47,060 bases of DNA, taken from assembly GCA_016195565.1 (NCBI GenBank), contig JACPZK010000020.1, positions 1-47,060 on the forward strand. Reading direction: 5' to 3'. A model generated the notes under the pieces. It was not told where the DNA came from. It was given only the letters and a program-made list of their open reading frames with translations, and did not search any database. Positions 27,566 to 31,656 of the stretch are shown here, piece after piece. The translations under genes and the position numbers were made by a program. How positions within the stretch are numbered: the stretch's first letter is position 1; every line of letters begins with the position of its first letter. The DNA comes from Nitrospirota bacterium (GTDB lineage: Bacteria > Nitrospirota > Thermodesulfovibrionia > Thermodesulfovibrionales > UBA1546).

Positions 27566-27805
27566 TTACTTCCCCCGTTTATAGATAATCTTCTTAGTCC
27601 CTCCGTCGCAGGTTCCGACTACTTTTCCGTCCTTGACATCCGCGGCTTTTTCATTCGGAACGATTTCAAGGCTGAATTTCTTTACTCCTTTTGCCTGAAT
27701 CTTGGCGTCAATCTCTGTTAGGAGTTCTTCACAGGGTTTCCTCTGCGCAAATGCAGGAGTTGCAGCGAACATCAATAAAACAACAGCGGCAATCAAGTTT
27801 TTCAT
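27566..27805 (-). CDS. DUF1161 small secreted protein
   Basis: The 79-residue precursor has a signal peptide MKNLIAAVVLLMFAATPAFA and a mature part of about 58 residues. It contains the DUF1161 pattern CEELLTEIDAKIQAKGV...FSLEIVP, ending in VVGTCDGGTKKIIYKR; the two cysteines could form a disulfide. Function unknown. An AGGAGGG-like site precedes the ATG. It lies alone, convergent with folP. Confidence 0.75.
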   Translation of the reverse strand: MKNLIAAVVLLMFAATPAFAQRKPCEELLTEIDAKIQAKGVKKFSLEIVPNEKAADVKDGKVVGTCDGGTKKIIYKRGK

Positions 27806-27869
27806 CTTAAACCCTCCTCTTATTTTTATTGAATTTTAGGAGAAAGCTAACAGGCAAGTCAAGAAGAAA

Positions 27870-29603
27870 TCACGCGGAGATTTTCCATATCAGTTCAAAA
27901 TTACATATGATGACTTCGGGCTTGCCGGAATCATTTTTCATAATGTCCCCCTTATTGTCTATTGCCAGCAGGAGGTCGTTGGTTTTCAGCAAGGAGCCGT
28001 CATATCCGGCATTCTTTAATTTTTCTTTTACCTCATCTAAAAGTTTCTGACATTCTGATTCATCAATAATACCTCTGTAAGCCGCCTTGTAAAGGTCTAT
28101 CGGAGTGTATAAAGCATCGCTGTGCTCGGCAACCCACTGGTCAGGCCCGTTGTAATAACCCCTGATTGTTATGTAGTTATGATTCTCCTGAAGAATGGGA
28201 TTGCCTTCAGGATCAAGAATGCTTTTGTGGAACTCATATTTTCTCAAATCAGTTGACGGCTCTATCTTTGCGCTTCCGGTCATGTATATAGCCCTTACAT
28301 AAACGCATGGGATCCCAAGCCGGTTAAGTTCATAGGATAAGGCAAATTCTTCAAAGGGGCTGTTTATCCCGAATTGACGGATCTTGGGATTATAGCTGCC
28401 GTTTTCCTCTATGTTATGCATTTCACCTACACGGGAAGTTTTCCAGACGAGGTGAATGTTGTCTTTTGTTATCGTATAGAACACTTCCTTTGAAAATGAC
28501 AATCTGATGGAAGGAGTTTTCCTCCATCTTTCAGGAAGGAAATAATCGAACAGATGCGCATTTTTCCCGACAACCCACAACCTGCCTCCGGTGCTCTCTG
28601 CGTGTCCATAAATATAGGGCACTCCGAAGATTTCTTTATAAGACAGATGAGAGGGCAAAGGAGTCGGTGTGAAACGGTTAAGCTGGTCATCGAGATATGA
28701 ATATCTTCGGGAAGATTTAACCGCATCTTCATGTTCAGGTGTGCGTGAGAGAAGCTCATAATCAACCACAGAATATTTGCCTTCATTCAGCAGTTGATAC
28801 AGCAGTTCTGTCTGTTTCCCCGGAGCGTCTATATCCTGAGAGCCGCCGATTTTTTTGATGCGCTCGGTATTCTCTTCACTGATTATGATATGTTCCGGCT
28901 TCATATCGGCAACGAGGTATCCTTTTTTGTTTAGGTCGCCTATCCCCTTGTAATTGATCTTTTTTAGATGACTTACAAGCTCGGCGCTGTCCACATTGAT
29001 AAGTTCAAAAACTTCGATAAGATTTTTGCCTTTAATCCATTCGTAGATGAGTTTGTATTGTTTTAATATGTCCAGATCAATGCCCGGATGCTTGACCCTT
29101 ATGCGGTTGATTTTTTCGCGCGACCTTCCGCTCTGCCACAACTGCATCTTTTCAGGAGGCACATAAATAGCCATGGGCCGTTGCGTATTAACCCGCAGCT
29201 CCTTCGGGCCATAGATGTTTTCACGCATCTCTGTGACAAGGGAAAACTCTTCCCACGGGCTGTTGAATTCAGCATCGCAGAATTCTTCCAGAGTGTGCGT
29301 ATCCAGAGGGACATCCTCTCCAACACGGCAGTTCTTGACTACGAGGTCAAGGCTTTTACCTTTAACCTCTTTTGTAGGAACCCTGTAAACAGAACTTGTG
29401 CCTTTAAGCCTAATCTTGTGTTTGTCGAACCAGTTCTTTTCATACCAGTTTGTGATATCAAAATGTTCTTCATAGGGTTCGGCAAAACGCGTGAGATACA
29501 GGTCTCCGCCGTCGCTGGTTTTTGTATGGACATACACAACGCCCAATACATTGACGAGAGATTTCTTTGATAGTGTTTTTTCCAAAGGTTTCCTCGTTGT
29601 CAT
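27870..29603 (-). CDS. Two-part protein-kinase-like protein (kinase half plus pseudokinase-like half)
   Basis: The 577 residues form two similar halves. Half one has LVVKNCRVGE (87-96, with a VAIK-like Lys90), FNSPWEEFSLVTEM (113-126, an alphaC-like Glu), a hinge-like YEWIKGKNL, a catalytic-loop-like GYLVADMKPEHII (228-240, Asp233) and VVDYE (Asp281, DFG-like). Half two repeats LVWKTSRVGE (385-394) and INSPFEEFALSYEL (413-426) but reads GYDGSLLKTNDLLL where the catalytic Asp should be and IICNFE (568) in place of DYE. The second half is therefore probably catalytically dead. No known family name is assigned; the kinase fold is inferred from motif order. The start codon at 29603 lies inside a REP element with no ribosome site, so translation start is uncertain. 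Confidence 0.7.
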   Translation of the reverse strand: MTTRKPLEKTLSKKSLVNVLGVVYVHTKTSDGGDLYLTRFAEPYEEHFDITNWYEKNWFDKHKIRLKGTSSVYRVPTKEVKGKSLDLVVKNCRVGEDVPLDTHTLEEFCDAEFNSPWEEFSLVTEMRENIYGPKELRVNTQRPMAIYVPPEKMQLWQSGRSREKINRIRVKHPGIDLDILKQYKLIYEWIKGKNLIEVFELINVDSAELVSHLKKINYKGIGDLNKKGYLVADMKPEHIIISEENTERIKKIGGSQDIDAPGKQTELLYQLLNEGKYSVVDYELLSRTPEHEDAVKSSRRYSYLDDQLNRFTPTPLPSHLSYKEIFGVPYIYGHAESTGGRLWVVGKNAHLFDYFLPERWRKTPSIRLSFSKEVFYTITKDNIHLVWKTSRVGEMHNIEENGSYNPKIRQFGINSPFEEFALSYELNRLGIPCVYVRAIYMTGSAKIEPSTDLRKYEFHKSILDPEGNPILQENHNYITIRGYYNGPDQWVAEHSDALYTPIDLYKAAYRGIIDESECQKLLDEVKEKLKNAGYDGSLLKTNDLLLAIDNKGDIMKNDSGKPEVIICNFELIWKISA

Positions 29604-29673
29604 TGCGAGCGTAGCGTGGCAATCTTTCTTTTGAGATTGCTTCGTCAGTCGTTACGACTTCCTCGCAATGACA
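29598..29673. repeat. REP-like palindrome overlapping the kinase-like start codon
   Basis: A 76-bp imperfect palindrome opens TGTCATTGCGAG and closes CTCGCAATGACA, with inner GGCAATCT / AGATTGC pairs. It is the same family as 8246-8323. The annotated ATG of the kinase-like gene is formed by its first bases. Confidence 0.75.
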
Positions 29674-29726
29674 ATTGGCACGTTTGTGTTATATTTAGAT
29701 CCTTTTCAAAAGCAGACAGAGCGATA

Positions 29727-31514
29727 TTATCCAAGGCGCTCCGCAAGTTCCTTCAACTGTTTTTTAAGCCTCTCAGGCAGACGGCTGCCGAATGTTGCAA
29801 AATGTTTCTCAATATCCGGTATCTCAGCCTTCCACTCATCAAGGTCAACCTTCGTAAGCTCTTCCATGTTTTCAGCAGATAGCCCTATGCCATTAAGGTC
29901 AAGGCCTCGATCCACAGGCAATAAACCTATAGCTGATTTCTTTGCGTCAACCTTGTTGTCTGTGCGTTCGCACATCCACTTAAGCACACGGCTGTTGTCG
30001 CTGAATCCGGGCCATAAAAATCTTCCATCATGGTTTTTCCTGAACCAGTTAACATAGAAAATCCTTGGGGCTTTAGAGCCGAGCCTGTCGCCCATATTGA
30101 GCCAGTGCTGAAAATAATCACCCATATTGTAGCTGCAAAAAGGTTTCATGGCAAAAGGATCCCTTCTCAAATTACCAATTTCTCCGATATTGGCGAATGT
30201 GGTCTCGGAGGCTGCTGTTGCGCCGAGGAATACACCGTGATCCCAAGAAAATGCTTCATATACAAGCGGGACAACACTGCTCCTTCTTCCGCCGAATATA
30301 AAAATATCTATAGGAACGCCATTCGGGTTTTCCCAGTCCTTGCAAATCACCGGGCACTGGGACGCAGGCGCCGTAAAGCGGGCATTAGGATGTGCCGCAT
30401 CACCCTTGCTTTCAGGAGTCCAGTCCCGCCCCTTCCAGTCAATGAGATGGGATGGGACATCGTCATTGATTCCTTCCCACCACACATCCCCGTCATCTGT
30501 AAGTGCGCAGTTAGTGAAAATAACATTCTCTTTCAGAGTATCCATTGCCATAGGATTAGTGTCATAAGAAGTGCCGGGAGCCACGCCAAAGAAGCCGTTT
30601 TCAGGGTTAATGGCATGAAGGCGTCCGTCAGCGCCGATCTTCATCCACGCAATGTCGTCGCCGATGCATTCGCATTTCCAGCCTTTGATTGAAGGCTGCA
30701 TCATGGCTAAATTAGTTTTACCGCAGGCAGATGGGAATGCAGCAGCAATGTGATACTGCTTTCCCTCAGGATTGGTGAGTCTCAGTATGAGCATATGCTC
30801 TGCCATCCAGCCTTCTCTTTTGGCGACAGCAGATGCTATTCTCAGCGCAAGGCATTTTTTGCCGAGCAGGGCATTGCCGCCGTAACCTGAACCAAATGAC
30901 CATATCAGATTTTCCTCAGGGAAATGGCTTATGTATTTTTTCTCAATCGGAGCGCAGGGCCACTGGACATCCTTCTGTCCCTTGGCTAATGGCGCGCCTA
31001 TAGAATGGAGGCAGGGAATAAAATCCTCACCTGCATTAAGAAGTTCCATGACTCTGGCGCTTACGCGGGTCATGATATGCATGTTTATAACAACATAAGG
31101 GCTGTCTGTAACCTCTACCCCTATCTTTGAGATTGGAGAACCTATCGGCCCCATTGAAAAAGGAATCACAGACATTGTGCGTCCCTTCATGCAGCCTTTG
31201 TATAGCCGCTTCATGGTGTCTTTTAGCTCAATTGGATCAATCCAGTTATTTGTAGGGCCTGCCGCATCTTTTGCGGATGTGCTTGTGAATGTGCGGTCCT
31301 CAACGCGCGCCACATCGCTTGGGTCAGAGCGGAAAAGATAGCTGTTAGGCCGCTTCTTAAGGGGAATGGCGCTGCCGCTTGCCATCAGCTTTGACAGCAT
31401 GAGGTTATATTCTTCCTTGGTCCCGCTGCATAAGTAAATGTCATCGGGCTGGCACATCTCCGCAGCTTCTTTAATCCAGTTGTTCAGTTTTTCATTCTTT
31501 GTCAAAGCAGACAT
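29727..31514 (-). CDS. pckG: Phosphoenolpyruvate carboxykinase (GTP)
   Basis: PckG interconverts oxaloacetate and phosphoenolpyruvate using GTP or GDP. The start MSALTKNEKLNNW at 31514 is chosen for its AAAGGAG site and gives 595 residues, the normal size. The nucleotide-binding P-loop with the reactive cysteine is AAFPSACGKTNLAMM, followed by the kinase-2-like ECIGDDIAWMKI. Other family stretches are GSGYGGNALLGKKC, FGGRRSSVVPLVYEAF and FYVNWFRKNHDGRFLWPGF. It stands alone, divergent from the site-2 protease gene. Confidence 0.95.
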   Translation of the reverse strand: MSALTKNEKLNNWIKEAAEMCQPDDIYLCSGTKEEYNLMLSKLMASGSAIPLKKRPNSYLFRSDPSDVARVEDRTFTSTSAKDAAGPTNNWIDPIELKDTMKRLYKGCMKGRTMSVIPFSMGPIGSPISKIGVEVTDSPYVVINMHIMTRVSARVMELLNAGEDFIPCLHSIGAPLAKGQKDVQWPCAPIEKKYISHFPEENLIWSFGSGYGGNALLGKKCLALRIASAVAKREGWMAEHMLILRLTNPEGKQYHIAAAFPSACGKTNLAMMQPSIKGWKCECIGDDIAWMKIGADGRLHAINPENGFFGVAPGTSYDTNPMAMDTLKENVIFTNCALTDDGDVWWEGINDDVPSHLIDWKGRDWTPESKGDAAHPNARFTAPASQCPVICKDWENPNGVPIDIFIFGGRRSSVVPLVYEAFSWDHGVFLGATAASETTFANIGEIGNLRRDPFAMKPFCSYNMGDYFQHWLNMGDRLGSKAPRIFYVNWFRKNHDGRFLWPGFSDNSRVLKWMCERTDNKVDAKKSAIGLLPVDRGLDLNGIGLSAENMEELTKVDLDEWKAEIPDIEKHFATFGSRLPERLKKQLKELAERLG

Positions 31515-31656
31515 AAATTTTTCTCCTTTAAGATGTATGATGCTATCACCGAAATATTTTTTAAAAAAGAGGTTACCTTCAGCGTCAGCCAATATATTTA
31601 ATTATACGAATTATGCCATCAGAAAATCCAGAGCCATGGGCAGCCAGTTTATTTAG

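Follow-up and report, generated by a model that had tools for sequence, protein, structure and literature searches.

A tandem kinase–pseudokinase-like protein genetically associated with GTP-dependent PEP carboxykinase in Nitrospirota

The window analysed here, the whole 47,060-nucleotide stretch of contig JACPZK010000020.1 from a Nitrospirota bacterium (assembly GCA_016195565.1), encodes next to pckG a protein that the preliminary description, made from the sequence and its open reading frames, presented as a double kinase-like protein with a probable pseudokinase half. The locus raises the question of whether this protein is a kinase and, if so, what it would act on (the features discussed below are collected in Table 1). 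The gene lies on the minus strand, a point absent from the preliminary description. Its start is probably the TTG at position 29585, given that a GAGGA ribosome-binding sequence precedes this codon, that close relatives begin there and that the six codons ahead of it fall inside a dispersed palindromic repeat. This repeat, of the CATTGCGAGCG...CGCTCGCAATG type, has been inserted into the space that separates pckG from the kinase gene and probably supplies the false ATG start of the longer, 577-codon frame. One of its arms has 28 matches in the window's genome versus 0 for a reversed-pattern control. Downstream of the kinase gene and on the same strand (27569-27808) lies a gene for a small secreted-looking DUF1161 protein, whose cluster is present in only 3 of the neighbourhoods compared.

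Table 1. Features of the tandem gene and its upstream neighbour. Coordinates are window positions; residues are numbered in the 577-residue frame.
Feature	Coordinates	Strand	Basis
pckG, GTP-dependent PEP carboxykinase	29727..31592	-	PF00821, E 4.7e-170; PF17297, E 2.9e-96; conserved pair
Dispersed palindromic repeat, 13-nt perfect arms	29597..29674	.	inverted repeat between pckG and kinase gene
Tandem kinase–pseudokinase gene	27870..29603	-	577-aa open reading frame; 571 aa from the probable TTG start at 29585
Module 1, residues 12-312, predicted to be competent for catalysis	28668..29570	-	invariant residues; AlphaFold model and fold search
G-loop-like GTSSVY, residues 68-73	29385..29402	-	putative role, from position ahead of the K90 strand
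K90, VAIK-type lysine	29334..29336	-	49/49 relatives, 28/28 diverse members, 9/10 single-module homologues
E118-E119, alphaC glutamate candidates	29247..29252	-	E119 invariant in all sets; located at the start of the helix that follows K90 and its strand
Catalytic loop DMKPEH, residues 233-238	28890..28907	-	D233, K235, H238 unchanged throughout the three sets
DYE, residues 281-283, DFG-equivalent metal site	28755..28763	-	D281, E283 unchanged throughout the three sets
Module 2, residues 317-577, putative pseudokinase	27873..28655	-	homology to module 1; catalytic residues lost; kinase folds matched
LLKTND, residues 538-543, degenerate catalytic loop	27975..27992	-	Leu at the D233-equivalent position in the window protein
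NFE, residues 568-570, degenerate DFG-equivalent	27894..27902	-	protein ends 7 residues later

Neither Pfam nor NCBIfam yields a family match for the window protein, in agreement with the earlier remark that no named bacterial family of this form was known, and a search of open-licence papers returned none that describes such a family or a kinase of bacterial PEPCK. In particular, the Pfam scan gives no match of the window protein to PF00069 (Pkinase), to which 5 of 69 module-1 sequences show weak similarity (best E 0.011). The most frequent weak Pfam match is ABC1, which 19 of the 69 members show with an E of 2e-4 at best; the window protein itself scores 11.1-12.5 bits with PF03109 (ABC1/UbiB), below the gathering score of 22.9 bits. 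The Pfam families of AceK and of PpsR/PDRP (Kinase-PPPase) are found neither among the matches of the window protein nor among the matches listed for alignments A1 and A2. A profile search against PDB sequences identifies weak similarities only, the best one being to twitchin kinase (E 0.05), where the DMKPEH loop aligns with LDLKPENI. A possible role in defence is not supported by the neighbourhood, which is of the housekeeping type, and PADLOC reports only weak PD-T4-6 kinase matches (E 1e-3); a tblastn search against plasmids yielded no match.

The family comprises 52 relatives in GTDB species genomes, mostly from Nitrospirota, where 59 of the 396 sampled genomes are kinase-positive, with additional representatives in Fibrobacterota, Lentisphaerae and Planctomycetota; further members are present in the two phyla to which the planctomycete and the lentisphaera matches belong, the second of which is taken here as Verrucomicrobiota. 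Ten members, from Planctomycetota and Verrucomicrobiota, are single-module proteins that match the first half only. In genome G896 (locus L101:4470-6169), the two modules are encoded as separate reading frames split at the module border, a split that might be either natural or due to a frameshift. Given the existence of single-module proteins and of this genome with separately encoded modules, the module is a free unit, of which the tandem protein is a duplication.

The motif RVGE occurs at residues 93-96 and again at 391-394, with a spacing of exactly 298, and NSPWEEF (114-120) recurs as NSPFEEF (414-420) with a spacing of 300. The internal duplication that had been proposed from these motifs is borne out by profile comparison: two profiles from 49 relatives, one for residues 1-316 and one for residues 317-577, align in hhalign with a probability of 97.2% (E 3.7e-11, 26% identity over 231 columns), versus a best E of 0.0038 among 20 block-shuffled control profiles.

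Module 1 contains, in order, the landmarks of the PKL superfamily, that is, the lysine, the alphaC glutamate, the catalytic aspartate and the metal-binding aspartate. The earlier assignment of DMKPEH and DYE as retained catalytic motifs is confirmed, D233 and D281 being invariant across the relatives. Indeed, K90, E118, E119, D233, K235, H238, D281 and E283 are all invariant in the 49 relatives and in 28 diverse tandem members, and E119, D233, K235, H238, D281 and E283 are found in 10/10 single-module homologues (K90 in 9/10). Within the G-loop-like motif, T69 is kept in 49/49 relatives, in 27 of the 28 diverse members and in every single-module homologue (10/10), and G68 and V72 are invariant in alignment A1. 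In the model of module 1, the glutamate candidates E118-E119 lie near the start of a helix (116-128); the module also includes a family-specific N-terminal cap (15-62) and a hinge near residues 187-192. In contrast to the HRDxKxxN and DFG motifs of eukaryotic-type Ser/Thr kinases, the catalytic loop reads VADMKPEH, with histidine in place of asparagine and no HR preceding the aspartate, and the metal site has the form DYE or DFE. About 35 residues separate DYE from module 2, and most of the single-module proteins have only a short tail after DFELL. The activation segment, with its APE motif, and helices F-I, that is, the late C-lobe of ordinary protein kinases, are absent in both modules. Thus, with a C-lobe that stops just after the DFG-equivalent, module 1 is no standard Ser/Thr kinase.

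The preliminary description had named, as the observation that would count against it, a predicted structure in which the first half lacks a bilobal kinase fold. An AlphaFold model of module 1 alone, built with 69 sequences (pLDDT 89.9, pTM 0.87), retrieves kinases in Foldseek (best E 1.1e-4) and in VIA-align, where the best match is WaaP (Z 8.6, rmsd 5.4, 172 aligned residues); all the listed matches of both searches are kinases, with modest scores (TM about 0.3). In the full-length model (pLDDT 79.9, pTM 0.79), kinase chains match both halves with Z of about 7-8.5. The preliminary reading thus survives this check. The fold scores are modest and alone would not prove a kinase fold; taken together with the ordered invariant residues, they indicate that module 1 very likely adopts a kinase-like fold.

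Module 2 has the hallmarks of a pseudokinase, having lost the lysine, the catalytic aspartate and the metal aspartate while keeping detectable homology to module 1 (E 3.7e-11). The absence of the catalytic aspartate and of the metal motif from the second half (LLKTND, NFE), initially noted for the window protein, extends across the family. The residue at position 568 is asparagine in 47/49 relatives and in 26/28 diverse tandem members (aspartate in two), position 388, equivalent to K90, varies between lysine, glutamate and arginine among the relatives, and there is no G-loop. Retained are the NSPFEEF motif and a block with the pattern ESTGGxLWVVG. The mean pairwise identity is 0.68 in each module, which shows that module 2 is not in decay. 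By analogy with other kinase–pseudokinase arrangements, module 2 might regulate module 1.

A survey of neighbours in other genomes, suggested in the preliminary description, reveals a recurring partner that had been missed, GTP-PEPCK. In the window, the kinase gene directly follows pckG, which has the same orientation. Of the 53 neighbourhoods compared, the window included, 40 contain PEPCK together with the kinase gene, always on the same strand and mostly as the adjacent upstream gene, while the flanking genes change. Among the 396 Nitrospirota genomes, PF00821 is present in 58 of the 59 kinase-positive ones versus 15 of the 337 kinase-negative ones (Fisher p 3e-54, a value that is inflated by the relatedness of the Nitrospirota genomes and uncorrected for it). 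The only kinase-positive genome without PEPCK, G342, has a partial kinase gene in a fragmented assembly. PEPCK is found upstream on the same strand at a distance of at most 6 kb in 53 of the 58 genomes, including 38 with a distance within 300 bp and 15 more within the 6 kb; in 4 it is on another contig and in 1 far away. One complete Nitrospirota genome possesses both genes 2 Mb apart. In the window's own family, PEPCK is present in 7/7 listed kinase-positive and in 0/4 listed kinase-negative genomes. In loci L006-L009 and L029, the PEPCK and kinase reading frames overlap.

Outside Nitrospirota, the picture depends on the phylum. In Planctomycetota, PEPCK is present in 10/10 genomes with a tandem or single-module homologue versus 101/294 overall (p 2e-5), and either a tandem kinase gene (locus L103) or a single-module homologue (L096) can directly adjoin PEPCK. 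In Verrucomicrobiota, the corresponding numbers are 19/19 versus 213/241 (p 0.14), a test made uninformative by the near universal presence of PEPCK in this phylum. In the loci from Verrucomicrobiota and Fibrobacterota, the kinase gene is not located beside PEPCK, and in Verrucomicrobiota single-module homologues adjoin an argJ-like gene.

Several other contexts were observed. The single-module homologues in L097, L098, L099 and L100, from four genomes, adjoin an argJ-like gene, and some of them are close to rpsI; this is a conserved position that lies away from PEPCK. In the planctomycete locus L102:3020-6432, the final part of a SulP-family transporter gene (Sulfate_transp and STAS) overlaps with the tandem kinase gene; the same genome also has the single-module homologue that adjoins PEPCK in L096. 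In L031, L033 and L035, genes for a response-regulator protein and a histidine-kinase-like protein directly precede the kinase gene in the same orientation, and in L033 and L035 these two genes separate it from PEPCK. Frequent neighbours of the pair are genes for an M50 peptidase and for TrpRS; these were rejected as functional partners because their position and strand vary and because they also flank PEPCK in kinase-less genomes. The loci L123-L126 contain close relatives of the window's PEPCK gene, with the same two flanking genes and without the kinase gene.

In six Nitrospirota genomes, a close relative of this PEPCK (73-81% identical) is present and the kinase gene is not, so PEPCK can function in its absence; no PEPCK residues were found that separate kinase-linked from kinase-less PEPCKs. 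PEPCK connects gluconeogenesis with the TCA cycle. The search for a PEP carboxylase (PF00311) was negative in the window's genome and in 40 relatives; PEPCK may accordingly be an important link between PEP and oxaloacetate, and its control could matter.

Taken as a whole, the reading of this protein as a new PKL-type family that arose by tandem duplication, with phosphotransfer by module 1, a pseudokinase regulator in module 2 and GTP-PEPCK as the target, falls just on the probable side. Under this reading, module 1 would hold ATP-Mg via K90, E119, D233, H238 and D281, the use of ATP being suggested by the invariant K/E/D/D set, and would transfer phosphate using D233 and K235. Module 2 would hold and tune module 1, perhaps via sensing a metabolite or a nucleotide. 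Linkage and co-occurrence point to PEPCK, encoded in the same operon, as the most likely substrate, so that the activity or the direction of the PEP–oxaloacetate step would be set by the kinase. A more specific proposal, namely a dedicated GTP-PEPCK kinase with a minimal module that ends at the metal aspartate and is completed and controlled by its pseudokinase copy, is tentative and remains, on balance, doubtful. Several observations speak against a PEPCK kinase in general: close PEPCK relatives occur in genomes that lack the kinase, no PEPCK residue tracks its presence, and in Verrucomicrobiota the co-occurrence is uninformative and the gene lies away from PEPCK. In addition, in the absence of the activation segment, the usual peptide-binding surface of protein kinases is missing, and the DYE/DFE motif also resembles those of small-molecule PKL kinases.

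The latter resemblance leads to one alternative, under which the protein is a small-molecule PKL kinase of the aminoglycoside, choline or heptose type that acts on a metabolite near the PEP node, with a structural role for module 2. Many small-molecule PKL kinases have such a replacement of DFG, the C-lobe is short, the best structural neighbour of module 1 is the heptose kinase WaaP (Z 8.6), and the operon is metabolic. The D-x-K catalytic loop is typical of Ser/Thr protein kinases and not of small-molecule kinases, and the invariant K235 of the window protein is of this protein-kinase type, which would favour a protein substrate; moreover, no gene other than PEPCK recurs as a same-strand partner across the Nitrospirota loci. 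With these observations, a small-molecule kinase appears unlikely. Comparably improbable is a non-phosphorylating partner of PEPCK, in which both modules bind a nucleotide or metabolite and PEPCK is controlled through binding, or module 1 performs another chemistry, e.g., AMPylation. The presence of H238 in place of the usual metal-binding asparagine is compatible with this possibility, the strong conservation of module 2, e.g., the STGGxLWVVG block, suggests a binding role, and PKL proteins with AMPylation or glutamylation activity are known (PMC10870513, PMC6858067); the complete invariant K/E/D/K/D set argues instead for ordinary phosphotransfer.

Finally, the protein could be an enzyme or a regulator with a target other than PEPCK, the pairing then reflecting a shared need, e.g., growth on C3/C4 acids, together with inheritance of the genes as a block. 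The lack of PEPCK linkage in the Verrucomicrobiota and Fibrobacterota loci and the linkage to a SulP transporter instead in one planctomycete (L102) are compatible with such a scenario. Against it stand the near-perfect co-occurrence in Nitrospirota, which extends to unlinked cases such as G312, and the overlapping reading frames in several genomes, and we regard a different target as quite unlikely.

If the more specific proposal of a minimal module completed by its pseudokinase copy is correct, the PEP–oxaloacetate node would be controlled post-translationally in a new way, by a kinase of a new minimal architecture. The shortened module bears on the minimum size of a working kinase fold. A conserved kinase–pseudokinase partner of PEPCK would also provide a simple bacterial system of two purified proteins for testing both the control of a kinase by a pseudokinase and the control of PEPCK direction through phosphorylation. 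The consulted portions of two reviews, on the PEP node and on PEPCK regulation, describe no dedicated kinase of bacterial GTP-PEPCK (PMC8100219, PMC10441589).

Among the known systems, several share individual features with the tandem protein. The LPS kinases WaaP/KdkA and the ABC1/UbiB family are, similarly, atypical PKL kinases, WaaP being the nearest one structurally and ABC1 by weak Pfam matches; unlike these, the window protein is tandem-duplicated and PEPCK-linked, and it scores below the ABC1 cut-off. In JAK, a competent and a degenerate kinase domain are combined in one chain. The same layout is seen in plant tandem kinases, e.g., WTK1, for which a tandem kinase–pseudokinase family has been described (PMC6170490). 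The likeness of JAK and the plant proteins to the window protein concerns the layout only: those are full eukaryotic kinase domains, whereas the present family is bacterial and has nearly nothing after the DFG-equivalent. Bacterial pseudokinases, including a class DYD, are represented among the bacterial Ser/Thr pseudokinase families (PMC12599244), in a paper whose main text contains neither "tandem" nor "carboxykinase". PDRP, which according to the consulted portion of a PEP-node review has both PPdK and the PPS of E. coli as targets (PMC8100219), resembles the proposed function in that PpsR/PDRP is a dedicated kinase of a PEP-node enzyme; its fold and its target are different, and the window protein has no match to that family. 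AceK is the isocitrate dehydrogenase kinase/phosphatase, a protein with a kinase fold that is encoded in the aceBAK operon. As proposed for the window protein, it is a kinase-fold enzyme from a central-carbon operon and acts at a branch point, on an enzyme of metabolism; it is, however, not built as a tandem of kinase and pseudokinase, it acts on isocitrate dehydrogenase, and its Pfam family does not match the window protein. The fold of PpsR/PDRP, in turn, is of the P-loop type. The window protein is thus unrelated to AceK or PpsR, and its proposed function is, by analogy, most similar to those of these two.
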